A stretch of DNA of 64,000 nt. It comes from Labrenzia sp. OB1 (GTDB taxonomy: Bacteria; Pseudomonadota; Alphaproteobacteria; Rhizobiales; Stappiaceae). Below the pieces are notes generated by a model. The model saw only the letters and a list, made by a program, of their open reading frames with translations. It ran no database searches and had not been told where the DNA came from. Location: NCBI RefSeq assembly GCF_001624695.1, contig NZ_JSEP01000009.1, positions 1 to 64,000 of the forward strand, in the 5' to 3' direction. Shown here in pieces: positions 18,213 through 41,396 of the stretch (its first letter is position 1; each line of letters begins with the position of its first letter). The position numbers and the translations under genes are program-made.

Positions 18213-19424
18213 ATGCATGACCCCTTAACCGGCAAGGTCCATTGGCATGAACCCCAGGCCGAAGACCGCGCAGGCCACGGCAAGTTCGGCCAGCCGCTTT
18301 CTGAATACGACAGGTTCATGGACGCCGAAGGCATTGGCTGCTTCCGCGGTCTGGGGTTCAACAGCGTCTTCGATCTGCCGTTGAGCGACTGGCCCCGGAT
18401 GGGCGGGCGCGGACACTTCATCCAATTGCATGGTACCGAGGGCAAGTGGGGCTGCTATGTGGTGGAGGTTCCCGCGGCCGGTGGCCTGAACCCGGAAAAA
18501 CACCTCTACGAGGAGATATTCCTGGTTGCGGAAGGGCGCGGCACGACGGAGGTCTGGCTTGAGGAAGGCGGACGGAAGCATGTCTTTGAGTGGCAGAAAG
18601 GTTCGCTCTTCTCGATTCCGGTGAATGCCTTCCACCGGATCGTCAACGCCACGAACAAGCCGGCTCTGCTGATCGCGGGCACCACGGCACCGAATCTGAT
18701 GGACCTGATCGGCAACACCGAGTTCATCTACAATACGCCTTACCGGTTTTCCGACCGCTTTTCACCGGTGCCGGATTTCTACAAGCCGTCGGAAGACATT
18801 GAGCCGGATCCGATCCGGGGGCTGGCGATGCGGCGCACCAACCTGGTGCCGGACGTGGTGAACTGCGAGTTGCCGCTCGATAACCGCCGCTCCCCCGGTT
18901 ACCGGCGGGTGGAGCCTTTCATGACCGGCAACAAGTTCTATCTCTGGCTCGGCCAGCATGAGACCGGACGCTATTCCAAGGCTCATGCGCATACATCCGC
19001 CGCCGTGCTGATCGGTCTGAAAGGCGAAGGCTACACATATACCTGGCCGGAGGAACTTGGGGTGACCCCCTGGAAGGACGGCAACGGCGATCAGGTGCAG
19101 CGGATCGACTACGGCCAGTTCGGCATGGTCAGCGCCGCTCCCGGCGGGGCGCGCTGGTATCACCAGCATTTCAACACATCCAGGGAACCGTTCCGCATCT
19201 CCGCCTGGTTCGGTCCGAACCACCCTAGTCTCGTCACCGGTCTGCGTCCGGGCGCGCAGCAGACCGACTATACCGCCATGGACATCACCGAAGGAGGTAC
19301 GGCCATTCCCTATTGGATGGAAGATCCTCATCTGCGCGAGGAATTCGAAGCCCGTATCCGTGCAAGCGGCGGGACGCTGCGAATGGAGCCCACACGCTAT
19401 GAAAAACCCGAAAGGGTGACCTGA
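18213..19424 (+). CDS. Bicupin protein 1, paired with EutA-like ATPase
   Basis: This 403-residue protein has two cupin barrels. The first (about 75-160) reads EKHLYEEIFLVAEGRGTTEV and GSLFSIPVNAFHRIVNAT; its first metal motif lacks the canonical HxH. The second (about 250-345) has KAHAHTSAAVLIGLKGEGY with HxH, and GARWYHQHFNTS as motif 2. Bicupins of this size include gentisate- and salicylate-type ring-cleaving dioxygenases, but the sequence is not close enough to any of them for a substrate call. The gene is 4 bases upstream of an EutA-like ATPase gene. The same partnership recurs at 38.4-41.4 kb. Possible roles are a metal-dependent dioxygenase or a sensor/activator; the first is favoured by the catabolic context. 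Confidence 0.75.
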   Translation: MHDPLTGKVHWHEPQAEDRAGHGKFGQPLSEYDRFMDAEGIGCFRGLGFNSVFDLPLSDWPRMGGRGHFIQLHGTEGKWGCYVVEVPAAGGLNPEKHLYEEIFLVAEGRGTTEVWLEEGGRKHVFEWQKGSLFSIPVNAFHRIVNATNKPALLIAGTTAPNLMDLIGNTEFIYNTPYRFSDRFSPVPDFYKPSEDIEPDPIRGLAMRRTNLVPDVVNCELPLDNRRSPGYRRVEPFMTGNKFYLWLGQHETGRYSKAHAHTSAAVLIGLKGEGYTYTWPEELGVTPWKDGNGDQVQRIDYGQFGMVSAAPGGARWYHQHFNTSREPFRISAWFGPNHPSLVTGLRPGAQQTDYTAMDITEGGTAIPYWMEDPHLREEFEARIRASGGTLRMEPTRYEKPERVT

Positions 19425-19428
19425 CCCC

Positions 19429-20940
19429 GTGGCAGACACGCCCCAAATTTCGCCTGCTGGCGGGCAGATCTTCTTCTCCGGGGGCTCCCGTAGCCTCATC
19501 GAGGAGGATGAGATCGAGATCACCAGCGTGGGTGTCGACATCGGCTCTTCCACCGCGCATCTGCTGTTTTCCCGGTTGACGCTGGAGCGGTTGGATACCC
19601 GCTATGTCGTCACTTCACGCGAGGTTCTCCATGCCTCGGAAATCCTGCTGACACCCTATCGCGACAATGGTGACATCGATGCCGAACGGCTGGGGGCCTT
19701 TGTCGACCAGCAATACGCAAGAAGCGGCCTTGCCCGGGAGCAGGTTGACGCGGGTGCGCTGATCCTGACCGGTGTTGCAGTGCGCCGCCGCAATGCCCGC
19801 GCCATCGGGGAGTTGTTTGCTGCCGATGCCGGGAAATTCGTCTCGCTCAGCGCCGGTGACAGTCTGGAAGCGGTTATGGCTGCCCATGGTTCCGGCGCGG
19901 CTGCCGCATCCAGAGACGGGCGGACGATCCTCAACATCGACATTGGCGGAGGCACCGCGAAGCTCGCGGTTTGCCGGAACGGTGAAGTGTGCGAGGTGAC
20001 GGCGATAGAGGCAGGGGCCCGCCTCGTTGTGACCGATGCCCGTGACCGGATCGTCAGGCTTGAAGAGTTCGGGGCCAGAGCAATCGGGCCGAATGCGAAG
20101 CTGGGCGATACACTGAGCCGCGACGGGCGGTCCGTCCTGGCGGCAATGCTGGCGCACCGCATTTTGCAGGGCACTCTTGGAGGACTTGAGCCGGTCTATC
20201 ACCGCCTGCCGCCGATCGCTGCCGGCTGGCAGTTCGACGGTGTCGTCCTTTCCGGTGGCGTATCGGAGTTTTTCTACGGCGACACGGCTGAAGATTTTGG
20301 TGATCTGGGTCTGGATCTCGCCCGGCTTCTGCGCATGGACCTCAAGGCGGCGGGGTTTGCCGTGCTGCCAAATCGGGACGGCATTCGGGCGACTGTTGTC
20401 GGTGCTTCGCAATACACAGTGCAGGTCAGCGGCAGCACGGTCTTTCTGGATCCGCTCGAAACGCTGCCGCTCCACAATCTGGCAACCGTGCGGCCGGCCT
20501 TGAAGCTCAGCGAGGAAATTGATCCCGCCGCAATGGAAAAAACCGTCTCGGCGGAGTTGCAACGCCTTGACCTGGCAGGCGGTGCGCAGCCGGTGGCGCT
20601 TGCGTTGTCCTGGCAAGGGTCAACAAGCTTCGCCCGGCTTCACGCCCTGAGCTGCGGCCTGGTGGCGGGGCTGGCTCCCGTGCTGTCGGCAGGGCATCCC
20701 CTGGTGATCGTGACCGACGGCGATATTGGCGGCCTGCTTGGAATGCATTGCCGCGAACACGGGCTGGCAACGAATCCGATCGTGTCGATTGACGGCATTT
20801 CTCCGTCGACCTTCGATTTCATCGATATCGGCGAGGTTCTGCACGCAACCGGAGCCGTGCCGGTTGTCATCAAGTCGCTGGTTTTTCCCGGCGAACCCAC
20901 CCGGCTGGAGACCGAGACATATGACCGGCACCAAGTTTGA
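19429..20940 (+). CDS. EutA-like ATPase (reactivase family), copy 1
   Basis: EutA is an ASKHA-fold ATPase that reactivates adenosylcobalamin-dependent ethanolamine ammonia-lyase. This 503-residue protein has the phosphate-1 loop SVGVDIGSSTAHLLFSRL (about 30-47), ALILTGVAVRRRNAR, a second phosphate loop LNIDIGGGTAKLAV (about 165-178), an adenosine motif VVLSGGVSEFFYG, and the C-terminal EutA block FDFIDIGEVLHATGAVPVVIKSLVF. It starts with GTG 4 bases after the bicupin stop. No ethanolamine ammonia-lyase or other B12 enzyme is visible in the window, so its client is probably different, and the adjacent cupin is the obvious candidate. The 3' end overlaps tctB2 by 20 bases. Confidence 0.85.
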   Translation: MADTPQISPAGGQIFFSGGSRSLIEEDEIEITSVGVDIGSSTAHLLFSRLTLERLDTRYVVTSREVLHASEILLTPYRDNGDIDAERLGAFVDQQYARSGLAREQVDAGALILTGVAVRRRNARAIGELFAADAGKFVSLSAGDSLEAVMAAHGSGAAAASRDGRTILNIDIGGGTAKLAVCRNGEVCEVTAIEAGARLVVTDARDRIVRLEEFGARAIGPNAKLGDTLSRDGRSVLAAMLAHRILQGTLGGLEPVYHRLPPIAAGWQFDGVVLSGGVSEFFYGDTAEDFGDLGLDLARLLRMDLKAAGFAVLPNRDGIRATVVGASQYTVQVSGSTVFLDPLETLPLHNLATVRPALKLSEEIDPAAMEKTVSAELQRLDLAGGAQPVALALSWQGSTSFARLHALSCGLVAGLAPVLSAGHPLVIVTDGDIGGLLGMHCREHGLATNPIVSIDGISPSTFDFIDIGEVLHATGAVPVVIKSLVFPGEPTRLETETYDRHQV

Positions 20941-21439
20941 GGCCCCCCCAAAGTCAGTGACTTCGATCTGGCCCGCGGTGACGGTTCTGGCATTCGCATG
21001 CGTTGTTTTCGCGGTTGCCCAAAGCTACAGCGAAACTGCCCGCCGCTTTCCTTCAATCATCGCCCTCGTGCTTGCCGTGCTGGCGTTGTTCGACATGTAT
21101 GGCCGCACCCGGCTCCCCGGACACGACGCGCTCAACACCTTCTGGGGCAGCGGATTTTCACGACGCGAAATGACCCACAATCCGGGCCTGCGCGACGAAA
21201 TCGCCGTGCTGGGATGGGTGTTGTCCGCGTTCGCCGCCCTGGCGGTGCTGGGCATTCTGGCGGGAGCTCCCCTGTTTACGCTGTTCTACATCTAGCGCCG
21301 GGGCGGACGGCCGTTCGCTCAGGCTGCCCTGATCGGGCTCGGTGTCCTGACCTTCGAATATGGCGTTTTCGAATGGGCCCTCGATTACGAACTCTATCGA
21401 GGGCTCATTGTGGCGGAGGGCGGGCTTTCGGCCTGGTGA
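20921..21439 (+). pseudogene. TctB small permease, system 2, interrupted by an in-frame amber codon
   Basis: The gene starts at ATG 20921 inside the EutA-like gene and codes 124 residues with two to three hydrophobic segments, ending LFTLFYI and TAG at 21293-21295. The same frame continues after the TAG without further stops to TGA 21437-21439. It reads RRGGRPFAQAALIGLGVLTF and then EYGVFEWALDYELYRGLIV. That is just what the last TctB helix and tail should look like, giving a normal full length of about 172. One base change (for example TGG to TAG) explains it. The truncated product would lack the last helix. A sequencing error or readthrough are alternatives. Confidence 0.75.
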
Positions 21440-21462
21440 AAAGTTTCGAAAGGAGGAACGAA

Positions 21463-22404
21463 ATGAAACATCTGTTGAAATTGGGGGTTCTGACACTGGC
21501 GGCCTTGGCCGCGGCGCCGGCACAGGCCGGTTATCCGGAGAAGGGGCCGGTTACATTCGTCGTGCCCTATGGTCCGGGAGGCGGCTTCGACACGATCGTG
21601 CGTACCTTTGCGCCGGAGGTTGAAAAGGTGCTCGGAGCGACCATCGTACCCAAGAATATTCCGGGTGCGTCGGGCACGCGCGGCGGGCAGAGTGTGGCGC
21701 GTGCGGAAGCCGACGGCTATACGATCGGCATCTACAATGTGCCCGGCCTGAACGTCGCCGGGACCCTGGGGCGTGACATTGGTTTCAATCTCGATGACGT
21801 CACCTGGATCGCCAATCTGGCGGAATCCAAATATGCCGTCGCCGTTGCCAAGGACAGCCCGGTCACCAGTCTGAAGGATCTTTGCGGCCTGGGCCGCCCG
21901 ATCAAGCTGTCCGATACGGGCAAGGATTCCACGTCCTCGATCGCATCCGTGATTGCGTTCAACCAGATCGGGTGTGAAATCAACAACATCACCGGTTACA
22001 GCGGTTCGAACGATACGATGATTGCCGTGATGCGCGGCGAGGTGGATGCTACCTTGAAGCCCATCTCTTCCCTGGCGAAGTATACCGATTCCGGCGACTT
22101 GCGGCTGATTGCGACGCTGACGGAAACTTCGGTGGTCGAAGGCGTGCCGTCGACCACCGAACTGGGGTTCCCTGAACTTGCAAAACTCGGCCTCAATCGC
22201 GTGGTCGGTGGACCGCCGAACATGCCCGCAGACGTGGTGGAGACACTTTCCGGTGCGTTCAAGGCCGCGGCCGAGAGTTCCACGATCCAGGAATGGGGCG
22301 GCAGCACCGGGACTGTGATCAAGTATCTGGATGCCGAACAGACAGACAGCATGATGACAGGCGTTTCGGACTTCTACCTGCAATACAAGGAATTGCTTGA
22401 GTAG
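21463..22404 (+). CDS. Tripartite tricarboxylate transporter substrate-binding protein (TctC), system 2
   Basis: This is a periplasmic binding protein of 313 residues. The start at 21463 follows AGGAGG. The signal peptide MKHLLKLGVLTLAALAAAPA ends at QAG (about residue 22). The mature part begins GPVTFVVPYGPGGGFDTIVR, the typical TctC ligand-loop block, and includes NIPGASGTRGGQSVARAEAD. Two cysteines in the middle (LCGLG and IGCEI) may form a disulfide, as in several TctC proteins. It lies between the broken tctB2 and tctA2; a hairpin separates it from tctA2. Confidence 0.93.
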   Translation: MKHLLKLGVLTLAALAAAPAQAGYPEKGPVTFVVPYGPGGGFDTIVRTFAPEVEKVLGATIVPKNIPGASGTRGGQSVARAEADGYTIGIYNVPGLNVAGTLGRDIGFNLDDVTWIANLAESKYAVAVAKDSPVTSLKDLCGLGRPIKLSDTGKDSTSSIASVIAFNQIGCEINNITGYSGSNDTMIAVMRGEVDATLKPISSLAKYTDSGDLRLIATLTETSVVEGVPSTTELGFPELAKLGLNRVVGGPPNMPADVVETLSGAFKAAAESSTIQEWGGSTGTVIKYLDAEQTDSMMTGVSDFYLQYKELLE

Positions 22405-22415
22405 CAGTCTGCCGG

Positions 22416-22436
22416 GCCGGTCCACACAGGACCGGC
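22416..22436 (+). terminator. Hairpin between tctC2 and tctA2
   Basis: An 8-bp perfect stem (GCCGGTCC pairing with GGACCGGC) with a 5-base loop ACACA, 12 bases after the tctC2 stop. It parallels the larger hairpin between tctC1 and tctA1. No T-run follows, so partial termination or mRNA stabilisation is more likely than full termination. Confidence 0.55.
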
Positions 22437-22455
22437 TCCGCCATGAAAGGAAAGC

Positions 22456-23973
22456 ATGATGGGGTTCGAAGCGCTGCTCCAGGCTCTTGCGGACATCGCA
22501 GGCGGTGGCGGCATAATCTATTTTCTGTCGGGTATCGTGCTTGGGCTGTGTTTCGGGGTCATTCCGGGTCTTGGAGGCACCACCGCGCTTGCGCTGCTGA
22601 TCCCGGTCACCTACGGAATGGTGCCGCTGGATGCCATGTATCTGGCCGGAGGTGTCATGGGGTCGACTGCCTTCGGCGGCTCTATTTCGGCCATTTTGTT
22701 GAACACGCCCGGCACGGCTCCAAACGCGGCAACAACGTTCGACGGATATCCGCTGGCGCGCCAGGGAAAGGCGGGGTTGGCCATTGGCGCCGCGGCCTGC
22801 GCATCTTCGATGGGGGGCGTGATCGGGCTCCTTACGCTGATCCTCTTCATTCCGATCGCCAAGGCAATCGTTCTCAGCTTCGGTCCTGCCGAATTCTTCC
22901 TGCTGACCATATTGGGGCTGACCGCAATTGCAGTCTCCGTTCGCGGGAAGATGTTGCGCGGCCTGATCGCGGGAGCGGTCGGACTGACTCTCGCATTCGT
23001 CGGATCGGACATGATTTTGGGCGACCTGCGCTTCACGGGCGGTCTCAACTATCTCTGGGACGGCGTTCCGCTCGTCCCCACGCTGACCGGCATGTTCGCT
23101 ATCTCCCAGATGATCGAGCTGGCGTTGAAAGGGGGCTCGGTGGCAACAGTTGGGGACAAGGACGTGGCGGCCATGAAGATCACGGGAGTGGGGGAAGGGG
23201 TTCTTGCCGTTTTCCGTCACTGGCCGGTCCTCTTGCGCGGGTCGGTCATCGGCACTCTGATCGGAGCCATTCCCGGTCTCGGTGGCACGGTTGCCTCCTT
23301 CCTGGCCTACAGTTCGACCGTTCAGACGGACAAGCATCCGGAGACTTACGGCAAGGGCAACATTCGCGGTGTAATCGCGCCGGAGTCGGCCAACAACGCC
23401 AAGGATGGCGGATCACTGATCCCTACCGTGGCTTTCGGCATACCCGGCAGCGCCGAGACCGCGATCTTTCTCGGCATCCTGGTGCTCCACGGAATGGACC
23501 CGGGGCCGATGATCCTTCTGCAGCACGAAGGAGAAATCTACGGGCTGATTGTCGCGATCACCCTTGCCTCGGTCGGGGCATCGCTTCTCGGCCTGGCGAT
23601 TTCGCGGTTTCTGGTCCTGATCACACGCATCGACGTAGGCATAGTGGCTCCAGTGGTGATTGCCGTTTCGCTGACCGGGGTCTACGTGCTTGAAGGTCGC
23701 ATGGCGGACGTGCTGTTGACCATGATCATGGGACTGGTCGGCTATTTGATGATCCGCTTCGACTATCCGAGGCTGACGCTGGTGATTGCTCTCGTGCTCG
23801 GCGAAACCGCTGAACGGTCCTTTCACCAGGTTCAGCAGATCTCCGACGGACATGCACTGCAGTTCATACTGGGGCGGCCCGTGGCGACGATCCTGTTGCT
23901 CGCCACGCTCATGACCTTCCTGTTGCCTGTGGCGCGCAAGCTGCTGGAGAAGCGCAAGGTTTTACGGAACTGA
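22456..23973 (+). CDS. Tripartite tricarboxylate transporter large permease (TctA), system 2
   Basis: This 505-residue inner-membrane permease has the TctA motifs GVIPGLGGTTALALLIP (about 35-51) and GAIPGLGGTVASFLAYSS (about 270-287). The conserved GKGNIRGVIAPESANNAKDGG and FGIPGSAETAIFLGI are also present. The start is ATG ATG at 22456 with GAAAGG upstream. It is the last gene of the long plus-strand unit that begins at tctC1. Its small partner TctB2 is interrupted, so it may work with TctB1 or not at all. Confidence 0.94.
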   Translation: MMGFEALLQALADIAGGGGIIYFLSGIVLGLCFGVIPGLGGTTALALLIPVTYGMVPLDAMYLAGGVMGSTAFGGSISAILLNTPGTAPNAATTFDGYPLARQGKAGLAIGAAACASSMGGVIGLLTLILFIPIAKAIVLSFGPAEFFLLTILGLTAIAVSVRGKMLRGLIAGAVGLTLAFVGSDMILGDLRFTGGLNYLWDGVPLVPTLTGMFAISQMIELALKGGSVATVGDKDVAAMKITGVGEGVLAVFRHWPVLLRGSVIGTLIGAIPGLGGTVASFLAYSSTVQTDKHPETYGKGNIRGVIAPESANNAKDGGSLIPTVAFGIPGSAETAIFLGILVLHGMDPGPMILLQHEGEIYGLIVAITLASVGASLLGLAISRFLVLITRIDVGIVAPVVIAVSLTGVYVLEGRMADVLLTMIMGLVGYLMIRFDYPRLTLVIALVLGETAERSFHQVQQISDGHALQFILGRPVATILLLATLMTFLLPVARKLLEKRKVLRN

Positions 23974-24129
23974 AGACTGGTCCGGCGGTTCCGCAAAGGC
24001 CGCCGGGCCAGTGTGCTCCATGGAACACGCTGGATGCGTCTGTGCACGGAACGGCCCGCGGCCAACGAACCAGGCGGGATATCGCAGCACCGAACCCGGC
24101 GGGGCGATCAGTTCTCCGTTAACGGCACG

Positions 24130-24157
24130 CAAAAAAGGCGGCCAATTCAGGGCCGCC
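24130..24157 (-). terminator. Intrinsic terminator after the ferredoxin gene
   Basis: Read on the minus strand: GGGCCGCC stem side, 6-base loop, GGCGGCC, then TTTTTT. It is 25 bases beyond the ferredoxin stop and in the right orientation for it. The plus-strand tctA2 gene converges on the same gap. Confidence 0.8.
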
Positions 24158-24181
24158 GTGGGCGAGGGGAGCTTGGGAGAG

Positions 24182-24508: not shown

Positions 24509-24555
24509 TGGTTCCTCGCCACTGTTTTGTCTGCTGGTTCCTTTCGCAAATTATT

Positions 24556-24580
24556 GGAACATCGTTCCGTATGCAAGAAA
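24556..24580. promoter_or_regulatory. IclR-type triple-pentamer operator, ferredoxin promoter
   Basis: GGAAC-atc-GTTCC-GTATGCA-AGAAA. Read on the minus strand it is TTTCT-N7-GGAAC-N3-GTTCC. It lies 48 bases before the ferredoxin start codon. Confidence 0.6.
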
Positions 24581-24707
24581 GTATAAGACGGAAGTTGGAA
24601 GTAATTTGCGCTGGAAGCAAGCGGAAATTTCGCGCGCCAGGACAAGTCTGTTCCAACCGGCTGATGATAAGAGGAAAAATCGTGCAGATGAGGGAGGCAA
24701 CGCAATT

Positions 24708-24744
24708 GTTCCGTATAAAGGAATATTGTTCTGCATAAAGAATT
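24708..24744. promoter_or_regulatory. Tandem IclR-type operator before the first cupin pair
   Basis: Two copies of the 17-bp element, GTTCC-GTATAAA-GGAAT and GTTCT-GCATAAA-GAATT, spaced exactly 20 bases apart. The third-pentamer rule (N3 between sites) is kept. They lie 32 bases before the cupin start codon. Confidence 0.65.
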
Positions 24745-24775
24745 CGGCTAACGGTAAGGAAATATGGAGGTGACG

Positions 24776-25375
24776 ATGTCCGAGAAGGTCAAGCCAGCCG
24801 GCGCCGAAAACGAACAGCCGAAGGGTTACTACCACAGTCAGAAAAACCGTATCTTTGTGCGGAGTGTGCAGGGAGAGTACAATCTGACGACCGAGCTGGA
24901 AAGACTCCGTTCCATGCCACGCGTGCGCAAAGCGCGCGAGATCAAATTTGTCGATGGGCCACAAGCCTACAGCCGGCACTATGTCGAACCCAAGGACGGG
25001 ATCAGCCAGCTTTTCCATATTCATCTTGAGGAATATGGTCCGGGCGGTAAATCGCAGAAGCACGGTCACGTCAACGAGGCTGCGTTTTATATCCTCGACG
25101 GGGAGGGCTACGAGGTCCATGACGAGATCCGGTATGACTGGAAAGCCGGCGACGTCGCGATCGTGCACAACAACTGTGTGCACCAGCATTTCAACGCTTC
25201 CGACAGCAAGCCCGCCCGGGCCCTGGTTCTGAAGACCAAGCCGATGTTCGTCTTCATGAACATGCTGTTCCAGAAGACGGTCGTGCCCCGCGAGACCACG
25301 CCGGCGCCAGGTGGAGAGAACTTCACCGTCCGCGAGGAAGAGGAAGACTTCAATCACCCGGAAGGAGGCTGCTGA
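24776..25375 (+). CDS. Single-cupin protein A1
   Basis: This 199-residue protein has one cupin barrel. Motif 1 is KHGHVNEAAFYILDGEG (about 85-101, with HxH and Glu) and motif 2 is VHNNCVHQHFNAS (about 127-139, His). All usual metal ligands are present, so it should bind Fe, Mn, Ni or similar. The start at 24776 is set by GGAGG; an upstream in-frame ATG at 24764 overlaps that ribosome site. The C-terminus is acidic and ends in Cys. It is followed after one base by the B-type partner. An equivalent A/B pair lies at 47.8-49.0 kb. The catalysed reaction is unknown; a heteromeric dioxygenase is my inference. Confidence 0.8.
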   Translation: MSEKVKPAGAENEQPKGYYHSQKNRIFVRSVQGEYNLTTELERLRSMPRVRKAREIKFVDGPQAYSRHYVEPKDGISQLFHIHLEEYGPGGKSQKHGHVNEAAFYILDGEGYEVHDEIRYDWKAGDVAIVHNNCVHQHFNASDSKPARALVLKTKPMFVFMNMLFQKTVVPRETTPAPGGENFTVREEEEDFNHPEGGC

Positions 25376-25376
25376 G

Positions 25377-25979
25377 ATGGCATGGGGCGAAAGCAAGGCC
25401 TGGTTGACGGGCGCTGAGAACCGGGATCTCTATCAGCAGCTCCTTGACGACGCGACCACGGCGCCCGAGCGAAATGCGGCACGGAAGAAAATCGTCCGCC
25501 CGGAGGAAATGCCCTGGGAAATGTCGCCTCAGGGGCTTTTGAAGCATCTGATCAACGAGGGCATGAACACCCGGATGGAGACAGTCGACTCCTATATGCA
25601 GATCGTTCCGCCAGGGTCGAAATCGGGCAAGCACCGTCATCTCGCGGAGGAATGCCTCTATGTGCTGGAAGGCCGCGGCTACGATCTGCATCAGGACTGT
25701 GACGTCGAAATCACTGACGACTACCACTGGAAACCGCAGGACAAGGTCCAGCGCTTCGATTACGAGGCCGGCGATGTGATCTACGTGCCGCCAAACACGA
25801 TTCATCAGCACTTTAACGCCGACCCCGGCAGGCCGTTGCGGCTGATTTCCTGCATCAACCGGATCTTCAAGCAATGCGGCCTCAACGATCTCGAGCAGAT
25901 CGAGGATGCGCCGGAATACCAGCCGGGTGTCGAACTGACACCGGAACGGGTTCGTCGCTTCCTCAGGACCTGTTCCTGA
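25377..25979 (+). CDS. Single-cupin protein B1
   Basis: This 200-residue single-cupin protein is the partner of the preceding gene (1 base gap, AAGGAGG before the ATG). Motif 1 is GKHRHLAEECLYVLEGRG (about 83-100, HxH and Glu) and motif 2 is VPPNTIHQHFNADP (about 139-152). Between them it has an insert of about 15 residues (DYHWKPQDKVQRFDY) that the A protein lacks. The N-terminal 50 residues are charged and helical. All metal ligands are present. Having A and B as separate, adjacent chains suggests a complex that mimics a two-domain bicupin. Confidence 0.8.
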   Translation: MAWGESKAWLTGAENRDLYQQLLDDATTAPERNAARKKIVRPEEMPWEMSPQGLLKHLINEGMNTRMETVDSYMQIVPPGSKSGKHRHLAEECLYVLEGRGYDLHQDCDVEITDDYHWKPQDKVQRFDYEAGDVIYVPPNTIHQHFNADPGRPLRLISCINRIFKQCGLNDLEQIEDAPEYQPGVELTPERVRRFLRTCS

Positions 25980-30249: not shown

Positions 30250-31230
30250 CTATTGCGAACGGCAGCTCTCGAAGCCGGCTGCAAGCGCCGCGCCGTCGAG
30301 ATTTCGTCCGATGAAAACGAGCCGTGATTGCCGAGGACCGGCAGTCCATCCGGCGGTGTAATCTCCCTCGAGCATCATGTTCACCGCCTGCACCACCAGC
30401 TTGCGGTCCTGGCCTGCGATGGAGAAAATTCCCTTGGTGCGCAGGATGTCAGCACCTTGCCGCTGCAGCAGCTGTTGCAGCCAGTTCTCCACTTTTGCCT
30501 GGTCGAGCGGATCGCCGCAGGAAAGAGCCACACTGGCAATCCCCCCGGCGGCGATGTGACCATGGTCGTGGTCATGGTCATGGTCATGCGGCTTGGCGGC
30601 GAGATCGATCCGGGTTAGGTCGAAGCTGCGGCGATCGAGCAACATGCCGGCAGGTATCTCCGAGCGCGTGCAGCGGATCAGTTCGGCCTGCGGGTTGATC
30701 AGACGAAGTTGCGCTTCGATCAGCTCCAGGGGGGCGGTGGCGGCATCCACCTTGTTGAGAACGATGAGGTCGCCAAAGGCGATTTGTTCGGCGGCATCGC
30801 TGCTTGTGGCGGTCTGCTCCAGAACATGTGCCGCATCGGTGACGGTGATCACCGAATCCAGTCTGCACTGTGCCGCGATCACCTGGTCGATCGCCAGGGT
30901 CTGGATCACGGGACTTGGATTGGCCAGGCCTGTGGTTTCGATCACGACGCCGTCAAGGTCCCGCTGCTCGGCGCACAGGCGCCGCAACACGCGGATCAGG
31001 TCGCCGCGCACCACGCAACAGATGCAGCCGCTGCTGAGTTCGATCAGCTCTTCGTTGCCGCCCTCGATCAACTCGCCGTCGATGCCGATGTCCCCGAATT
31101 CGTTGACGATCACGGCCAGCCGACGGCCTGCCGCCTCCGCCAGGATGCGGTTCACAAGTGTGGTCTTGCCCGCCCCCAGGTACCCGGTCACCACCGTGAC
31201 AGGAAGCCGCTCATCGTCGCTGTCCGGCAT
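30250..31230 (-). CDS. COG0523 G3E GTPase (metallochaperone family) with His-rich loop
   Basis: This 326-residue P-loop GTPase belongs to the family of CobW, YjiA and ZNG1, which deliver or insert metals. Walker A is GYLGAGKTT (16-24), the metal-binding CxCC motif is CICC (69-72), and the guanine-specificity motif is NKVD (159-162). A histidine/aspartate tract (about 215-225) separates the GTPase from the C-terminal CobW_C domain. The ATG lies 3 bases after the stop of the ADH gene and translation is probably coupled. In this island it would be a metal insertase for the cupin enzymes or the Zn-dehydrogenase. The metal cannot be read from sequence. Confidence 0.9.
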
Positions 31231-32777: not shown

Positions 32778-32798
32778 CTGCAAATATCGAGGATGCTC

Positions 32799-33740
32799 AT
32801 GAGCAAGCTGAAACTGAAGACCGTCACGCGAACACAAGGCAACAACCGCGCACTGAAGGAAGGCCGGGTCACTGCGCCTGACCTGGAGTTCGATTTCGAG
32901 GAAATTCCGGTGCTCGTGAAAGGGTTCCGCAGCATGGTGCGGGAACTGGCCTATGACGTTTGCGAAATGGCGCTGACCACATACATCTGCGCCAAGGCTC
33001 ATGGAGTGAAGTTCACCGCGCTTCCGGTCTTTCTTGTGCGTGACTTCCATCACGATGCGATCCTGCATCATGTTCCTTCAAGCCTGCAGTCTCCGTCGGA
33101 GCTTTCGGGCCGCCGGGTTGGCCTGAACCGTGGCTACACGGTAACGACCGGTGTCTGGGCCCGCTCGATTCTGCAGGACGAATACGGTGTCGATCTGTCC
33201 TCGGTAACCTGGGCGCCGTCCGGCGACGAGCATGTCGCCGGTTACCGCCCTCCCGCAAACGTCCAGCCGCTCGCGGACAGCGATCTGGCGGGGCAATTGT
33301 CTTCCGGCGAACTGGTCGCGGCGGTCGGTGCAAAGGTGGACCATCCGGACGTTGCAACGATGATCGCCGATCCGTTCTCGGCAGGTGTCGCGGCCCTGAA
33401 GAAACGGGGCCTCTATCCGATCAACCATCTCGTGGTGGTGCGTGACGAACTTTTGGCGGAAAACCCGGAGATCGCGACCCAGGTGTTTGACGCTTTCGCG
33501 TCCTCCAAGCAGCTTTATGTCGATGACCTGAAGGCCGGACGTGTTTCCGAACCCGGCCGGGTCGACAGGATCCACCAGGCCGCACTTGAAGTGATGGACG
33601 ATCCGTTGCCCTACGGAATCGAGCCGAACCGCGATGTTCTGGAGCAACTTGTCGGCCATGCGGTGACCCAGAAGATCATTCCGGAGCGCATCGACGTCGA
33701 CACCCTCTTTGCGGCGCCCGTCAGGAACTGCGTTGCCTGA
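32799..33740 (+). CDS. 4,5-dihydroxyphthalate decarboxylase-like protein (Pht5/NMT1 fold), copy 1
   Basis: This 313-residue protein has the periplasmic-binding-like fold of Pht5 but no signal peptide, so it is a cytoplasmic enzyme. Family features include EIPVLVKGFRSMVRELAYDVCEMALTTY near 35-60, ALPVFLVRDFHHDAI near 75-90, LSGRRVGLNRGYTVTTGVWARSIL near 105-128 and PYGIEPNRDVLEQLV near the end. The start at 32799 is favoured by GAGG 6 bases upstream. It is divergent from the copy at 35.4 kb; perhaps each decarboxylates a different dihydroxylated polycarboxylate. A thiamine-precursor-like binding role (NMT1) is the alternative. Confidence 0.75.
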   Translation: MSKLKLKTVTRTQGNNRALKEGRVTAPDLEFDFEEIPVLVKGFRSMVRELAYDVCEMALTTYICAKAHGVKFTALPVFLVRDFHHDAILHHVPSSLQSPSELSGRRVGLNRGYTVTTGVWARSILQDEYGVDLSSVTWAPSGDEHVAGYRPPANVQPLADSDLAGQLSSGELVAAVGAKVDHPDVATMIADPFSAGVAALKKRGLYPINHLVVVRDELLAENPEIATQVFDAFASSKQLYVDDLKAGRVSEPGRVDRIHQAALEVMDDPLPYGIEPNRDVLEQLVGHAVTQKIIPERIDVDTLFAAPVRNCVA

Positions 33741-34606: not shown

Positions 34607-34617
34607 GGATGCAGTCC

Positions 34618-35439: not shown

Positions 35440-35449
35440 TTCAGGCTCC

Positions 35450-36436
35450 TTAGATGACGAATTCCTCGAAGGTTTCCAGGGCGAACATTTCCTCGACGCG
35501 CAGCACACGCGGCGACAGACCCTGTTCGTGGTGGTAGCGCAGGAAGGTCTCCAGCACCTTGCGGTTCTTCTCCAGGCCGTAGGGCCAGAAGTCTGGCCCC
35601 ATCAGCTCTACCGCTTCTTCGACATGGGCATTGAACCAGGGCAGCATTCCCTTCAGTGCGCTGGTCTCGCCATTGTCGTGATAGGTGATCCGCTGAGCTT
35701 CGCGAAAAGCCTGATAAAGGTTCATGGCAATCCAGCGGTTGGCTTCGTAGACTTCCCGGCGGATCGCGATAACATGCATGATCGGGAAGATGCCGGTCTC
35801 GCGCCAGTACTGCTTTTCGACGGGAATGTGGTCGGGAAACAGCCGCCGGACCGTAACGCCGTCGTAGGTGGACGGCTTGCGGGCGGTATGCAGGGCGTCG
35901 ATTTCGCCGGTCCGGAGCATTTGTGCAAGTGTCTTGCCTTCACCGATCGGCTCGACACTGATGTTCTCCGGCAGGTTCAGTTTCAGTTTTTCCTCGCGGT
36001 TGGGCGCTTCTTCGCCTCCGGTCACATAGGTCACGCTGTCCACCGGCACACCGTAGTGGTCCGACAGGATGCCGCGGATCCAGACCGGTGCGGTCATCTG
36101 GTACTCCGGCACGCCGACGCGCTTGCCGATCAGGTCCTGCGCCGTCTCGATCCCCGAATTCGCATTCACGTAGATACAGGAGTGACGGAAAAAACGGCTC
36201 GGATAGACCGGGATCGCAACGAACGGCCGCTCCGGGCGGCTGAGCGAGACGGTGTAGGAGGACATCGACATTTCAGAAACGTCGAATTCCCTCTGCCTCA
36301 GCATACGGAAGAAGGTCTCCTCGACGATCATGTCGAGGAACCGCAGGTCGATGCCCTCGGGGCGGACACGTCCGTCCTTGAGCGGCATGACACGGTCATA
36401 CCCCCAACAGCCGAGGGTAAGCGGAAGATTGGCCAT
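35450..36436 (-). CDS. 4,5-dihydroxyphthalate decarboxylase-like protein (Pht5 family), copy 2
   Basis: This 328-residue protein is the better Pht5 match of the two. It begins LPLTLGCWGYDRVMPLKDGRV and has VEETFFRMLRQREFDVSEMSMSSY, IPVYPSRFFRHSCIYVN near 75-92, DLIGKRVGVPEYQMTAPVWIRGIL near 105-128 and PYGLEKNRKVLETFLRYHHEQGL near the end. It has no signal peptide. In phthalate degradation Pht5 turns 4,5-dihydroxyphthalate into protocatechuate. It lies between the reductase and the PanB-like gene, 10-17 bases from each. The start is placed at ATG 36436; a TTG at 36457 overlapping the reductase stop is possible. Confidence 0.85.
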   Translation of the reverse strand: MANLPLTLGCWGYDRVMPLKDGRVRPEGIDLRFLDMIVEETFFRMLRQREFDVSEMSMSSYTVSLSRPERPFVAIPVYPSRFFRHSCIYVNANSGIETAQDLIGKRVGVPEYQMTAPVWIRGILSDHYGVPVDSVTYVTGGEEAPNREEKLKLNLPENISVEPIGEGKTLAQMLRTGEIDALHTARKPSTYDGVTVRRLFPDHIPVEKQYWRETGIFPIMHVIAIRREVYEANRWIAMNLYQAFREAQRITYHDNGETSALKGMLPWFNAHVEEAVELMGPDFWPYGLEKNRKVLETFLRYHHEQGLSPRVLRVEEMFALETFEEFVI

Positions 36437-36453
36437 GATGCTATACTCTCGGC

Positions 36454-37443
36454 TCAATAAAATTCGTCGAAATGGAGCTGGTTCATCGGCACGCCGGCCT
36501 CATGCGCCATCTTCTGGATGGCTGCGGCCATCACCGGGGGGCCGGCGAAATAGATCTCGTGATCCTTCAGTCTTTCGCCGAAATCCGCTTCGACGACCTC
36601 ATGCAGGAAGCCGCTGCGTTGGCCTTCCGTTGCCTGGGTGTCCGAGAGAGCTGCGATAAAGCTGATCCGGCCGGAAATGTCTCCGCCCAGAAGCGAAGCA
36701 TCTATAAGGTCGTTTTCGGCCCGGCAGCCGTAGTAGAAATGGAGCTTGCGGCGCTTCAGCAGTCCGGCAGCAGCAGCGCCCCGGGCGATGGATACCATCG
36801 GCGACAGGCCCGACCCGCCGGCCATCAGGATGATGTCACGTGGCCTGTCCGGACGCAGATAGGCCGTACTGTAGGGACCGTCGATGGAGATCTCCGTACC
36901 ATCCTTCAAGGCGAAGAGCTGCCCGGTCGCAACGCCGCCGGGGACCTTCTTGATCTGGAAAGACCAATTTCCCTCACCTGGCAGGTTGCACATGGAATAG
37001 GCGCGTGCGCCATTCACCCCCGGCAGCGACAGCAGGGCGTATTGCCCCGGCAGGAAGCCGTCTTCCCCCTCGAATTCGAAACGGAATTCGCGAATGTCAT
37101 GAGTGATGTCCGACAGGCGGGTCAGCCGGGCTTTCCGGCGCTTGGGCGGGTGAGGGGTGATGTAATTCTCGTCGGCCCGGAACTTTATCGTGCACCGGCC
37201 GGAGGGCCGGGCCTGGCACCCCAGCCAGCGGTTGCGCTTCAGATCGCGCTCCGACCAGGCCGGGGCGTCCTCGCGCAGATGCGAGACGTCGCCCTCGACC
37301 AGTTCGAACCTGCAATTTCCACAAGAGCCGACATTGCAGGAATAGGCCATGCCGACATTGGCACGAAGGGCCGCCCGAAGAATTGTATCGTTCTCGTCGC
37401 AGACAAATGTATCTGCGCTGTTAAGAATTGATATTTCCGTCAT
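36454..37443 (-). CDS. Oxygenase reductase: plant-type 2Fe-2S ferredoxin fused to an FAD/NAD reductase
   Basis: This 329-residue protein transfers electrons from NAD(P)H to a terminal oxygenase. The N-terminal ferredoxin has SCNVGSCGNCRFEL (about 35-48) and a later Cys in WLGCQARP (about 74), giving the four cluster ligands. The flavin domain has ARAYSMCNLP near 148, and the nucleotide domain has ILMAGGSGLSPMVSIARG near 205 and YFAGPPVMAAAI near 300. The order ferredoxin-FAD-NAD is that of benzoate/toluene-monooxygenase reductases rather than of the phthalate reductase Pht2, where the ferredoxin is C-terminal. It lies 22 bases after the IclR gene. Confidence 0.92.
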   Translation of the reverse strand: MTEISILNSADTFVCDENDTILRAALRANVGMAYSCNVGSCGNCRFELVEGDVSHLREDAPAWSERDLKRNRWLGCQARPSGRCTIKFRADENYITPHPPKRRKARLTRLSDITHDIREFRFEFEGEDGFLPGQYALLSLPGVNGARAYSMCNLPGEGNWSFQIKKVPGGVATGQLFALKDGTEISIDGPYSTAYLRPDRPRDIILMAGGSGLSPMVSIARGAAAAGLLKRRKLHFYYGCRAENDLIDASLLGGDISGRISFIAALSDTQATEGQRSGFLHEVVEADFGERLKDHEIYFAGPPVMAAAIQKMAHEAGVPMNQLHFDEFY

Positions 37444-37465
37444 TGGCCCTCTTTATCCATGGTTG

Positions 37466-38290
37466 CTACACGTAGATTTTTGGCCGCCCGGCAAACCCCA
37501 GGGTGTGCGAGATCTGTTCGGTGACCTCGATCACCTGCGGTGCAAGTTGCGGGAACTGGCGTTTTTTCATTCGAAGCCGCGGCCCGGCCACACCGACGGC
37601 GCCCAGCACGCGGCCATCGTTTTGGTAGATCGGAGCCGCAAGGCAGCGGGTGCCCTCTTCACATTCCTCGTCTTCGACGGCAAAACCCCGACGCTGCACG
37701 AGGCGGATCCGTTCGCGCAGTTCTTCTTCGTCCGTCATGGTCTTGTCGGTCATTTTCTCCCGCGGCTGCATCAGATACCTGTCGAGCTCGGCGGACCGCA
37801 TGCCGGCAAGAAGGCACAGGCCTTCGGCAACGCAATAGGCAGGCCGGCTTTTGCCTGTGCCGGACTTCAGCCGCAGGGTCTGCGGGCTTTCGAAGTCGTG
37901 CAGATAAACCGCGCGGTCGCCTTGCAGCACCGCGAGCCGCACGTTTTCCTGGGTGCGCTCGCGCAGTTCGTTCAAGATCCGTTTCGATGCATTGGCCACT
38001 TCAAAGCGTGAGCGGACCATGGATCCGAGAGAAAACAGCGCCACGCCGAGCTGGTAACGCCCGTTTTCGGGATTCTGCAGCAACATGTCTTCGTCCAGCA
38101 AGGCGCTGGCCAGCCTGTGCACCGTGCTTTTGGCAACGCCCAGACGCTTGGCCAGTTCGCTGATGCCAAGTTCCTTGTCTTGCGCGTTGAACGTTTTCAG
38201 CAGATGAATTGCTGTAGTGACCGACGACAGGCGAGCGCTGTCCCGCCGCGGGTTACGGTTTGGTTCATTTTTTTCACTTTTCGAGGTCAT
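37466..38290 (-). CDS. IclR-family regulator, likely master regulator of the island
   Basis: This 274-residue protein has an N-terminal winged helix (SSVTTAIHLLKTF, LGISELAKRLGVAKSTVHRLASAL, about 20-60) and an IclR effector domain from about 95 to 255. IclR relatives PcaU and PobR regulate protocatechuate and hydroxybenzoate genes. The start is placed at ATG 38290: the longer frame to 38455 overlaps the neighbour and runs through a copy of the island operator (38311-38335), which would then sit just upstream, as expected for autoregulation. It is transcribed with the reductase operon. The effector is unknown. Confidence 0.9.
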   Translation of the reverse strand: MTSKSEKNEPNRNPRRDSARLSSVTTAIHLLKTFNAQDKELGISELAKRLGVAKSTVHRLASALLDEDMLLQNPENGRYQLGVALFSLGSMVRSRFEVANASKRILNELRERTQENVRLAVLQGDRAVYLHDFESPQTLRLKSGTGKSRPAYCVAEGLCLLAGMRSAELDRYLMQPREKMTDKTMTDEEELRERIRLVQRRGFAVEDEECEEGTRCLAAPIYQNDGRVLGAVGVAGPRLRMKKRQFPQLAPQVIEVTEQISHTLGFAGRPKIYV

Positions 38291-38310
38291 ATCTGAAAAC
38301 ACCTGTTTCT

Positions 38311-38335
38311 GTTCCATTTTGCAGAACCGTGTTCC
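38311..38335. promoter_or_regulatory. IclR-type triple-pentamer operator at the iclR promoter
   Basis: GTTCC-ATTTTGC-AGAAC-cgt-GTTCC, 20 bases before the iclR start codon. It suggests autoregulation and control of the downstream reductase/decarboxylase genes. Confidence 0.65.
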
Positions 38336-38396
38336 AGTTTTCTCGTGATGACCTGAAGTTGTCAACGTTCCAATCCCCATTTCGCGGCGAACGGAG

Positions 38397-40163
38397 TCAT
38401 TCTCCGCTTCGTTCGCCCGGCGTTGTTGCCGTGGCGTGAGAATGCGTGTGGCCATGGCCGTGGTGATGGTGGTGCCCGTGGCTGTGATCGTCAGGCGTAT
38501 ATGGCTGTTCTCCTGACTGGAAATGGATGCGCTCGCCGCCGCGCGGGCCGCGTGGATCTTCCGCGAAGAGCAGAGACTTGACCGTGACCGGAACGGTGAA
38601 GGAAGGCAGGCGGATCTTGCCGAGATCGATATAGTCGAAGTCGCGCAGGCTCAGGCCGTCCAGCACAAGAAGATCGTTGGTCAGGCCGATCTCGTCACGC
38701 AGAATTCCACCTAAAGTCTGGGCAATGTCTCCATCGATGATCACGTAAAGTGGATGGCCAGCCGCCAGACGCGGCGCCATGGCTGTGGCGATTCCGTCTG
38801 CCAGGGCCCGGATTGGCAGGTAGTCGGGAGCGATCCGGTATTCGAAGACCAGCGCGACGTCCCGCGTTTCCGGCGTCATGTCGAAGGCTTCGAAGTGCTT
38901 TGAAATGGCATCGGCCACCTGGTCCGCTCCGGGATGGCGCTGCATGTCGAGATAGGGTTTGAGAACCGGCATGTTGCGCCGGGGCAGAACCCTGCTGGGC
39001 GATGTGATTGTCGAGGTCTGGCCGCTCAGTTGTACCGAATATTCGGAAGCACCGAGCGCCGTCGCCCGTATGCAGGCCACGGCAGGAAGGATCGGCGCGT
39101 TGAGAGCGCCTGCCGACGCGCGGGCTCGTATCGCCTTGCCGAGATGCAGTCCAAGGTCGCCGAAGGATCGGGTTTCGCGCTCATAGACATATTCGCCGAC
39201 GCCGCCCGAAAACATCAACCCGTCGATCGGCGACAGGTTTTCCGGCAGATCCGTGAGGAACAGACGCGCCGTATCCGCAGGCAGCGTCCGGCAAGTCAGA
39301 ACGCGGGTCAGCTGGTCGATCATCGTCTCCGCCACGCGGCCAAGGTCCTCCTCTGACATCGGCATTCCCGGGTGCAGCTCGTAGCCGGCGGTCGAAGCGT
39401 GGTGCCGCCCCGCGGGATCCATCCGGACAACATGATCATCTTCAGTGGCAATCAGGCGGCCGCCTATGTGGAGGGCGCCGGTCCAGGTAATTTTGCCGGC
39501 TTCGCAAAGCGCCAGCTTGGTGGTTCCGCCGCCGATGTCGACATTGAGGATGCGCCGGCCGCTGTCGTGGCTCGCCTTGGCTGCCCCCGAGCCATAGGCT
39601 GCAAGCATTGCTTCCATGTGGTTGCCGGCGGTTGCAGTGACGAAATCACCGCCCTTTTCGGCAACGATACCGGCAATTGCCTCGGCGTTTTCGCGCCGCA
39701 GGGCCTCTCCGGTCAGGATCACCACACCGGCATCGATGTCCGAAGGCAGGACCTTGGCGTCCCGGTAGGCCTTGTCGATGATCGCGCCAAGTGCGGGGCC
39801 GTCGATCGTGGTCGCATCGGCGAAGGGCGTGAACGCGATTTCGGATTCAAAGGCGGTGGCGCGATCGATGATCACATATTTGCTGGCAAGGCTCGAGCCG
39901 ACCCTCTGCAGGTGGACGTTCGAAAAAATCACCTGTGTCCCGGCTGAGCCGATGTCGATGCCGACCGACGTCAGCATCACGTTGTCACGCTGCCAGATCG
40001 GGTTGTCTTCCAAAGGGCCGGGGCTGATGTCGTCATGATCGTGATCGGCATCGCCGTCGTGGTCGTGCGGATAAAAGTCACCGAACATGTGGTCGTCAAT
40101 CGAATGCGGCGTGTCCTTGGAGGGGGCTGCCGTATCGATATCGGTGGCTTTCTTGCTAATCAT
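38397..40163 (-). CDS. EutA-like ATPase (reactivase family), copy 2, with His-rich ends
   Basis: This 588-residue relative of EutA is 85 residues longer than copy 1 because of added ends. The first 50 residues contain PHDHDGDADHDHDD, and the last 32 contain a tract of about 12 His (SHGHHHHHGHGHTHSH). The core shows SVGIDIGSAGTQVIFSNV (about 65-82), VVILTGEALRRENAEA, LNVDIGGGTTKLALCEAG (about 205), LMFSGGVGEYVYE and FDYIDLGKIRLPSFTVPVTV. Start ATG 40163 is preceded by AAAGGAAC, which overlaps the operator. It is divergent from bicupin 2. No B12 lyase is in the window. The His tracts suggest metal binding or delivery during reactivation of a metalloenzyme, which is inference. Confidence 0.85.
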   Translation of the reverse strand: MISKKATDIDTAAPSKDTPHSIDDHMFGDFYPHDHDGDADHDHDDISPGPLEDNPIWQRDNVMLTSVGIDIGSAGTQVIFSNVHLQRVGSSLASKYVIIDRATAFESEIAFTPFADATTIDGPALGAIIDKAYRDAKVLPSDIDAGVVILTGEALRRENAEAIAGIVAEKGGDFVTATAGNHMEAMLAAYGSGAAKASHDSGRRILNVDIGGGTTKLALCEAGKITWTGALHIGGRLIATEDDHVVRMDPAGRHHASTAGYELHPGMPMSEEDLGRVAETMIDQLTRVLTCRTLPADTARLFLTDLPENLSPIDGLMFSGGVGEYVYERETRSFGDLGLHLGKAIRARASAGALNAPILPAVACIRATALGASEYSVQLSGQTSTITSPSRVLPRRNMPVLKPYLDMQRHPGADQVADAISKHFEAFDMTPETRDVALVFEYRIAPDYLPIRALADGIATAMAPRLAAGHPLYVIIDGDIAQTLGGILRDEIGLTNDLLVLDGLSLRDFDYIDLGKIRLPSFTVPVTVKSLLFAEDPRGPRGGERIHFQSGEQPYTPDDHSHGHHHHHGHGHTHSHATATTPGERSGE

Positions 40164-40168
40164 TGTTC

Positions 40169-40193
40169 GTTCCTTTATGCGGACCATCGGTCC
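40169..40193. promoter_or_regulatory. IclR-type triple-pentamer operator between EutA-like 2 and bicupin 2
   Basis: GTTCC-TTTATGC-GGACC-atc-GGTCC. The second and third pentamers also form a perfect GGACC-N3-GGTCC palindrome. It sits in a 117-base divergent promoter, 5 bases from one start codon and 88 from the other. Confidence 0.7.
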
Positions 40194-40280
40194 ATTGACG
40201 AAACAATAACCTCCAAGTTACGTTGATGCAACACCTCAATAGAGTCTGGCTCACGGACTCGCAGAACGTACGGAGCGAAG

Positions 40281-41396
40281 ATGGTGAAACAAGCGATCGT
40301 CTCAGAGAAGCTGGCAGCCAAGTTCAAGACTGAAAAAGAGTCGCCCTATACAAGGTTCATCGCGGGAGAAGGTCTCGACATCATCGACGGTCTTTATGTC
40401 CCGAGCCTGCATGAGGTCGCGTTGAAGCCCTGGGCACGCCGCGGCGGCAACGCGGTTTTCATCAATCACGACGCATCACGGACCACCAACGACTGCTATG
40501 TCATGGAAATCCCGGCGGGCAGGAAACTCGAGCCCCAGCGGCAGCTCTTCGAGGAGACGATCCTCGTGCTGTCCGGCCGCGGTTCGACCATGGTCTGGAA
40601 CGACAGCGGCGACAAGGCCAGCTTCGAATGGGGTCCGGGATCGATCTTCGGTATTCCGCTCAATGCCAGCCACCAGCATTTCAACGGTTCTGGTACGGAA
40701 CCCGCGCGGTTTGTTTCGGTCACCAACATGCCGCCGCTGCTCAACGTGTTCGAAGAGCCGGAATTCCTGTTCGGTACCTCCTACGACTTCAAGGGCCGCT
40801 TCTCCGGCGAGCCGGATTACTTCGCCGATCAGGGCAGGCAGAACGGACTGTTGATGGAGACCAACTTCGTCGCCGACGCGATCAACCTGCCGCTGATCGA
40901 GGCGAAGGAGCGCGGCGCCGGTGGTGGTCATATCCGCTTCCAGCTCGCCAAATGCTCGATGAACAGCCACATCAGCCAGTTTCCGGTCGGCACCTACAAG
41001 AAATGTCACCGCCACGGCCCCGGCGCCCATGTGATCATTCTCTCCGGCGAAGGCTACAGCCTGATGTGGCCGGAAGGGGAGGACCCCAAGCGCTACGACT
41101 GGAAGCCTGGATCGATGATCGTGCCGCCGAACATGTGGTACCACCAGCACTTCAACGGCGGCACAACACCCGCCCGCTATCTGGCGTTCAAGTACGAAGG
41201 GGTCGCGATCCGCAATGCCCAGGGCGTACCTAAGGCCTGGATTTCTCAGCGGATCGGCGGTGACCAGATCGACTATGCCGACGAGCGCATGGACGTGCGC
41301 AACATGTTCAGCGACGCGCTGGCCAAACACGGCCTGACGCCGCGGATGGACGCCGCCTACGATGCGGAACTGGCCGACCTGCCCCCAAAATCCTGA
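40281..41396 (+). CDS. Bicupin protein 2
   Basis: This 371-residue two-cupin protein is a distant relative of bicupin 1. First barrel: PQRQLFEETILVLSGRGSTM (about 87-106, no HxH) with GIPLNASHQHFNGSG as motif 2. Second barrel: YKKCHRHGPGAHVIILSGEGY (about 238-258, HxH followed by a second His in place of Glu) and VPPNMWYHQHFNGG. The C-terminal barrel thus looks like the metal site. It starts the plus-strand unit that continues with the Rieske oxygenase, the NicO-type transporter and the His-rich protein. It may be a ring-cleaving dioxygenase of gentisate-like fold or a regulatory partner of the EutA-like protein. Confidence 0.78.
   Translation: MVKQAIVSEKLAAKFKTEKESPYTRFIAGEGLDIIDGLYVPSLHEVALKPWARRGGNAVFINHDASRTTNDCYVMEIPAGRKLEPQRQLFEETILVLSGRGSTMVWNDSGDKASFEWGPGSIFGIPLNASHQHFNGSGTEPARFVSVTNMPPLLNVFEEPEFLFGTSYDFKGRFSGEPDYFADQGRQNGLLMETNFVADAINLPLIEAKERGAGGGHIRFQLAKCSMNSHISQFPVGTYKKCHRHGPGAHVIILSGEGYSLMWPEGEDPKRYDWKPGSMIVPPNMWYHQHFNGGTTPARYLAFKYEGVAIRNAQGVPKAWISQRIGGDQIDYADERMDVRNMFSDALAKHGLTPRMDAAYDAELADLPPKS

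Follow-up and report, generated by a model that had tools for sequence, protein, structure and literature searches.

Reactivases of the diol dehydratase type (DdrA/PduG) are ATPases that swap a damaged cofactor, and CobW, HypB and UreG are nucleotide-driven metal insertases, GTPases of another fold. EutA, in the available part of PMC9426561, is described as exchanging adenosylcobalamin (AdoCbl) for cob(II)alamin (Co(II)Cbl). The cupin EutQ is encoded in one operon with EutA (excerpts of PMC3483176 and PMC12487888), is assigned to PF06249 (excerpt of PMC12487888) and, as far as the available part of PMC3483176 describes it, has no metal-binding histidines. Here we analyze two EutA-like ASKHA ATPase genes, EutA1 and EutA2, and their two bicupin neighbors in a stretch of 64,000 nucleotides from Labrenzia sp. 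OB1 (contig NZ_JSEP01000009.1, positions 1 to 64,000; hereafter the window). The coupling of EutA-like genes with bicupins is well supported. We propose, at a probability of about 0.5, that the EutA-like protein is a dedicated ASKHA ATPase loading or reactivating the histidine metal site of catabolic cupins.

Both window ATPases match PF06277 across the whole domain (Table 1), which rules out spurious gene calls, and each adjoins a bicupin, in agreement with an earlier note that had read the two pairs from the sequence alone. EutA1 has a GTG start 4 bases past the stop of bicupin 1; the EutA2 frame is open to an ATG at 40187, with AAGGAACG upstream of the ATG at 40163. These are the two full-length EutA genes of the genome, a third match covering 51 positions and falling below the cut-off. 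The ASKHA columns DxGS, DxGGGT and SGGV are invariant or nearly so in an alignment of 65 of 89 EutA-like proteins (A5), and the AlphaFold2 model of EutA2 has an ASKHA fold with disordered tails, with Foldseek matches to Ppx/GppA, PilM, MreB and 1hux; no solved EutA structure was found by sequence search. The likeness to EutA lies in the full-length domain and the ASKHA motifs kept in both proteins. In contrast, EutA2 is 30–32% identical to three EutBC-linked haloarchaeal EutAs, the best NCBIfam EutA equivalog scores of EutA1 and EutA2 (278.5 and 312.9 bits) miss the cut-off of 598, and the EutA-like branch differs by an extra N-terminal Asp/His segment and sometimes a His tail.

Relatives were collected from named genomes with a profile of 17 EutA-like proteins, which returned at least 515, of which the best 80 were kept, so that the set is enriched for the query's kind. 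The pooled set comprised 96 loci (two of which repeat others) and 107 non-redundant EutA-like genes. A bicupin was found within 400 bp of 81 of these genes, a bicupin sandwiched by two EutA genes being counted for both. It lay on the same strand in 76 cases (42 upstream, 34 downstream), with a median gap of 27 bp; 54 of the 76 gaps were at most 60 bp, and 17 pairs overlapped by mechanical open reading frame (ORF) starts. Records with an adjacent bicupin span Alpha-, Beta- and Gammaproteobacteria, Chloroflexota, Myxococcota and Actinomycetota, many of them metagenome bins. At one locus (L090:4660-13336), three EutA-like genes from three separate clades occur with bicupins in 9 kb.

Among 289 evenly drawn Alphaproteobacteria genomes, full-length EutA was present in 6 (15 genes in total); some EutA match at an expectation value (E) of 0.001 was seen in 220, short or weak only besides those 15 genes. 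The distance to a bicupin is at most 400 bp for twelve of the 15; L038 and L043 have UbiD and a small cupin, and L046 has neither. A bicupin profile search of the same genomes (E threshold 1e-15, with no more than 6 candidates per genome scored) recovered bicupins in 7, namely the 6 genomes with full-length EutA and G226, where the EutA is cut by a contig end beside the bicupin. In this class sample the bicupin shows dependence on EutA, being found only where a recognised cupin-type EutA was found. By their coordinates, 14 of the 28 bicupins listed lie in a run touching an EutA-like gene, one lies about 4 kb off, and 13 are alone; in G104, G113, G210 and G216, at least 6 bicupins are accompanied by 2–4 EutA-like genes. 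That bicupins outnumber the EutA-like genes, many of them standing alone, is expected if one helper serves several clients. Ten loci covering 12 of the 13 solo bicupins (G216:C96 was left out) contained tripartite tricarboxylate transporter parts in 5 cases, a decarboxylase-like protein in 2 and a Rieske oxygenase in 2, and none of these three neighbor types in L150, L151 and L154. The class to which G416 belongs gave no bicupin in 274 genomes, a weak negative as no genome there is known to match; the EutA genes of that class were two beside EutB (G416, G791) and one cupin-type fragment at a contig end (G664).

A quick maximum-likelihood tree was computed for 119 proteins (long branches flagged by the program). 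In it, the 12 EutB-linked EutAs, 7 of them shown with EutC as well, were split from all 107 EutA-like proteins by a branch with a Shimodaira–Hasegawa-like approximate likelihood ratio test (SH-aLRT) value of 99. EutA1 fell in a 13-row type-1 clade and EutA2 in an 11-row clade, each with support of 100. At loci L135 and L157, in two genomes, both EutA (228 bits) and the adjoining EutB are divergent, and L157 shows EutC too; the L135 branch is very long in the tree.

EutA and bicupin distances were correlated over 71 one-to-one pairs (Mantel r 0.80; best of 2000 permutations 0.21). Because shared species history could produce such a correlation, a swap test was run within genomes or loci. Ten same-genome or same-locus groups gave 24 comparisons, which are not independent; in 23 of them the fit was better with the own partner than with the swapped one. 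For the two window pairs the values were 0.89 against -0.36 and 0.78 against -0.16. Repeating the test with every other recognisable same-genome group added no usable pair. The within-genome swaps weaken shared lineage as the sole cause of co-divergence.

Many EutA-like proteins carry an Asp/His segment (e.g., MHDLDFDHEH, MHDxDxxHxH) near the start codon, ahead of the ATPase core. It was scored on 73 of 94 pattern-scorable genes, most of the 13 unscored genes visibly having it, and on none of the seven EutBC-linked EutAs with printed N-termini, which start close to the core. The type-1 EutAs have GGRxFFS or similar in its place, and here it is the bicupins that begin with M(P)HD...HWHEP or a like sequence. 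The segment is also borne by two type-1 bicupins of L147 that stand alone. Of the 71 pairs, 57 had it solely on EutA and 10 solely on the bicupin; none had it on both partners, and 4 had it on neither (Fisher p 2e-9, uncorrected for descent). This either-or distribution between ATPase and bicupin is a new observation. A segment required once per pair, on either chain, would suit a jointly used metal-binding arm. A C-terminal tail rich in His (at least 4) characterizes all 11 members of the EutA2 clade and 14 of the 107 genes overall.

The AlphaFold2 model of bicupin 2 is a confident two-cupin structure whose Foldseek neighbors include oxalate decarboxylase, MncA, vicilins and gentisate dioxygenase, with template modeling (TM) scores mostly of 0.43–0.50. 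By profile search, the nearest solved protein is the gentisate 1,2-dioxygenase 3bu7 (E 1.9e-8), yet the cut-off of the corresponding family TIGR02272 (442.1 bits) is far from reached, bicupin 2 scoring 19.3 bits and bicupin 1 giving no match. As a contrast to the gentisate 1,2-dioxygenase bicupins, those described here have a conserved His site in the C-terminal cupin. Its putative HxH...H metal ligands occur in both window bicupins, in all 68 rows of alignment A4 (68 of 78 bicupins), where H243, H245, H288 and H290 are invariant and H250 is kept in 53, and in 13 of the 15 rows of alignment A2. EutQ likewise is a cupin associated with EutA; the window bicupins differ from it in giving no match to PF06249 and in keeping the His site.

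The earlier note had seen no adenosylcobalamin enzyme beside the pairs, and the wider survey bears this out. By six-frame tblastn, EutB and EutC were found neither in the window nor in any of the 96 loci; as positive controls, the EutB query recovered 5/5 EutB-linked loci and the EutC query the EutC of L157. No EutB was found anywhere in 28 of 29 genomes with EutA-like genes (the window's own and 27 of 28 further), in a search that covered EutB and not diol dehydratase, glutamate mutase or other B12 lyases, and that took in 21 of the 47 genomes tested for B12-binding proteins, not the other 26. In the exception, G929, EutB lies on a contig of 478,413 bases and the EutA-like locus L079 on one of 568,838. 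Together, the locus and genome searches rule out hidden EutB or EutC near the EutA-like genes, and the earlier note's contrary case, in which most homologous pairs would sit beside a B12-dependent lyase, was not what the survey found. A B12-binding domain was found neither in window ORFs of at least 80 amino acids (aa) nor, with a profile built from 20 domain pieces, in the 6306 ORFs of the 96 loci, which rules out a B12-binding neighbor with a partial positive control (2/5 own-genome stretches recovered, the other three perhaps read in a wrong frame; a BLAST check used the same five).

In a phylum sample of 398 genomes, EutA at E 1e-20 was found in 6, five with adjoining EutB and the window's genome. 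EutB itself occurred in 79 of the 398, and 74 of these 79 were without EutA at that threshold, suggesting that many ethanolamine ammonia-lyases may work without an EutA reactivase, as the available part of PMC9426561 reports for Acinetobacter.

On the reading that we favor, the bicupins would be catabolic enzymes that depend on a metal bound by three or four His of the C-terminal cupin domain. The EutA-like ATPase would dock on the cupin, and ATP binding and hydrolysis would open or remodel it, while the Asp/His segment, on the ATPase or, in the type-1 clade, on the bicupin, would help to install the correct metal ion where it has been lost, oxidised or replaced by a wrong one. The analogy is with EutA, whose task on ethanolamine ammonia-lyase is to replace a damaged B12 cofactor by an intact one; here a bare metal ion would take the place of the cobamide. 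CobW, HypB and UreG are alike in being nucleoside triphosphatases with His-rich stretches beside a metalloenzyme, and differ in that the protein here is an ASKHA ATPase. With the reactivases of the DdrA/PduG type the system would share an ATPase that carries out a swap; it differs from them in its neighbor, a cupin. The strongest points for the proposal are the dependence, the asymmetry (more bicupins than ATPases), the co-divergence and the shared segment. The functional couple suggested in the earlier note gains from the co-occurrence, the co-divergence and the segment on either partner. Contact between the two proteins, the use of ATP, the transfer and identity of a metal, and a catalytic metalloenzyme role of the cupin we infer.

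Several observations weigh against this reading. Twenty-six of the 107 EutA-like genes are without a bicupin within 400 bp (4 have one at 443 bp to 5.3 kb, 7 adjoin UbiD and several lie at contig ends), and in G664 a cupin-type EutA fragment occurs in a genome in which no bicupin was found. Only about 9 of the 107 have a metal-transport gene within 6 kb: NicO in 6 cases, 5 of them in the UbiD-linked clade and one being EutA2, and a TerC-type gene, YjbE, in three Phyllobacterium loci. No CobW was found within 6 kb of any of the 107; the window's own lies 7 kb from EutA2, and that of L070 is likewise more than 6 kb away. The Asp/His pair pattern was set after inspection of the sequences, and the 10 bicupin-borne segments come from one clade, which makes about one evolutionary switch rather than ten. 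By the pattern, 4 of the 71 pairs have the segment on neither partner (L117 and L128 are His-rich but off-pattern, L098 has a weak MRLHDD and L050 nothing). Two type-1 bicupins (L039 and the EutA-adjacent one in L041) are without the HxH of the C-terminal site in the 15 rows of A2.

An alternative, which we judge unlikely, is a single holoenzyme made up of the EutA-like protein together with the bicupin, its chemistry being driven directly by ATP hydrolysis, as in acetone carboxylase or the 2-hydroxyacyl-CoA dehydratases with their activators; the ATPase would then be a subunit and not a helper. The tight operonic pairing and the co-divergence would suit such an enzyme, and the 2-hydroxyglutaryl-CoA dehydratase activator 1hux stands at rank 15 among the 50 best Foldseek matches of EutA2. 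A fixed subunit fits poorly with the excess of bicupins, including the 13 of 28 that are solo in genomes with EutA elsewhere, and with the replacement of the bicupin by UbiD as neighbor in one clade.

Since kinases exist among ASKHA proteins, the ATPase might instead be a metabolic kinase that shares a catabolic pathway with the bicupin, itself an enzyme, and their pairing would then reflect pathway logic only. Both genes do sit in clusters with tripartite tricarboxylate transporters, Rieske oxygenases, aldolases and dehydrogenases. Such a pathway would predict neither the either-or placement of the Asp/His segment nor one ATPase to several bicupins over different clusters, and we regard the explanation as rather improbable.

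The client could also be a different neighbor, UbiD or the decarboxylase-like protein of Table 1, with the bicupin as a co-chaperone or adaptor. UbiD lies within 400 bp of 10 and within 6 kb of 15 of the 107 EutA-like genes, and 32 have a member of the decarboxylase-like family at 6 kb or less. Bicupin adjacency is far commoner (81/107), and we give this account little probability. The UbiD-linked EutA-like genes without a bicupin form a single nested clade of 7 (L038, L043, L055, L057, L058, L061 and L068), each following a UbiD decarboxylase gene; a small cupin is present at 7/7 of these loci and a NicO Ni/Co transporter at 5/7, no bicupin was found there, and the Asp/His segment is on all seven EutAs. 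This sub-branch suggests that the clients of the EutA-like ATPases may not be bicupins alone, and UbiD is a possible second client class. Finally, it is very improbable that what the EutA-like protein reactivates is still a B12 enzyme, with its gene somewhere else, and that the cupin is unrelated: B12-binding proteins do occur somewhere in 47/47 genomes tested and elsewhere in the window's genome, but the searches for EutB (other B12 lyases not being covered) and, with their partial control, for B12-binding domains, the position of the EutA-like proteins opposite the EutB-linked EutAs and the co-occurrence with bicupins all speak against it.

Table 1. Features of the window, in window positions.
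Feature	Coordinates	Strand	Evidence
Bicupin 1, type 1, 403 aa	18213..19424	+	Cupin_2 35 bits; bicupin profile 542 bits (bicupin 1 is one of the profile's 15 rows)
Bicupin 1 N-terminal segment MHDPLTGKVHWHEP	18213..18254	+	Like segments on 10/71 paired bicupins, each with an EutA without the segment
EutA1, EutA-like ASKHA ATPase without Asp/His segment, 503 aa	19429..20940	+	PF06277 338 bits; 13-row type-1 clade, support 100
EutA2, EutA-like ASKHA ATPase, 588 aa from ATG 40163	38397..40163	-	PF06277 380 bits; AlphaFold2 mean predicted local distance difference test (pLDDT) 82.1, ASKHA fold
EutA2 N-terminal Asp/His segment HDHDGDADHDHDD	40029..40067	-	Absent from 7 EutBC-linked EutAs with printed N-termini
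EutA2 C-terminal His-rich tail HSHGHHHHHGHGHTHSH	38436..38486	-	Tail with at least 4 His in 14/107 genes, including 11/11 of the EutA2 clade
Bicupin 2, type 2, 371 aa, divergent from EutA2	40281..41396	+	Cupin_2 44 bits; AlphaFold2 mean pLDDT 90.8
HRHGPGAH (H243, H245, H250), putative metal-ligand motif of the bicupin 2 C-terminal cupin	41007..41030	+	Aligned bicupins: H243 and H245 68/68, H250 53/68
H288-Q-H290 of bicupin 2, other half of the putative metal site	41142..41150	+	Both His in 68/68 aligned bicupins
4,5-Dihydroxyphthalate decarboxylase-like protein, recurrent EutA-like neighbor (context)	35450..36457	-	Relatives within 6 kb of 32/107 EutA-like genes; no Pfam family
NicO/HupE-type Ni/Co transporter downstream of bicupin 2, possibly connected	43313..44029	+	43% identical to L059:19829-20557 (PF03824 match); within 6 kb of 6/107 EutA-like genes
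His-rich small protein of possible metal cluster	44704-45156
Membrane protein of possible metal cluster, related to the next	45098-45757
Membrane protein of possible metal cluster, related to the preceding	45754-46272

Around the pairs, the window regions 43313-46272 and 30250-31230 may constitute a metal cluster, with the NicO-type transporter, the His-rich small protein, the membrane proteins and the CobW GTPase. Two related-looking proteins, at 35450-36457 and 32793-33740, neither with a Pfam family, presumably resemble 4,5-dihydroxyphthalate decarboxylase. Two adjacent single-domain cupins lie near tricarboxylate-transporter genes at 24764-25979. A promoter scan of the divergent spacer between EutA2 and bicupin 2 found none.

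Among the matches listed in searches of open-access literature (subscription papers and preprints being outside its scope, so that prior work may exist), some of which contain both terms, we found no report of EutA-fold proteins serving cupin enzymes. The label 'ethanolamine ammonia lyase-activating', of the kind that the earlier note mentions for cupins in databases, occurs in none of the open-access papers searched; the EutA of PMC4996985 and PMC4334477 is, in the available parts of those papers, an unrelated ectoine gene. More tentatively than the loading role itself, we suggest a widespread, unstudied ATP-driven system of metal loading and repair for non-heme cupin enzymes, possibly UbiD decarboxylases too, that would form a sister branch of the B12 reactivases and hand over metal through an Asp/His arm on either partner. 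Cupin dioxygenases are not known to need help in obtaining their metal. An ATPase dedicated to them, if real, would make cupin metallation and repair directly testable and might explain the failure of such enzymes expressed alone. The EutA fold would then serve clients without B12, and the label 'ethanolamine ammonia-lyase reactivating factor', which L033 carries, is probably wrong for this whole branch of Proteobacteria and Chloroflexota genes.

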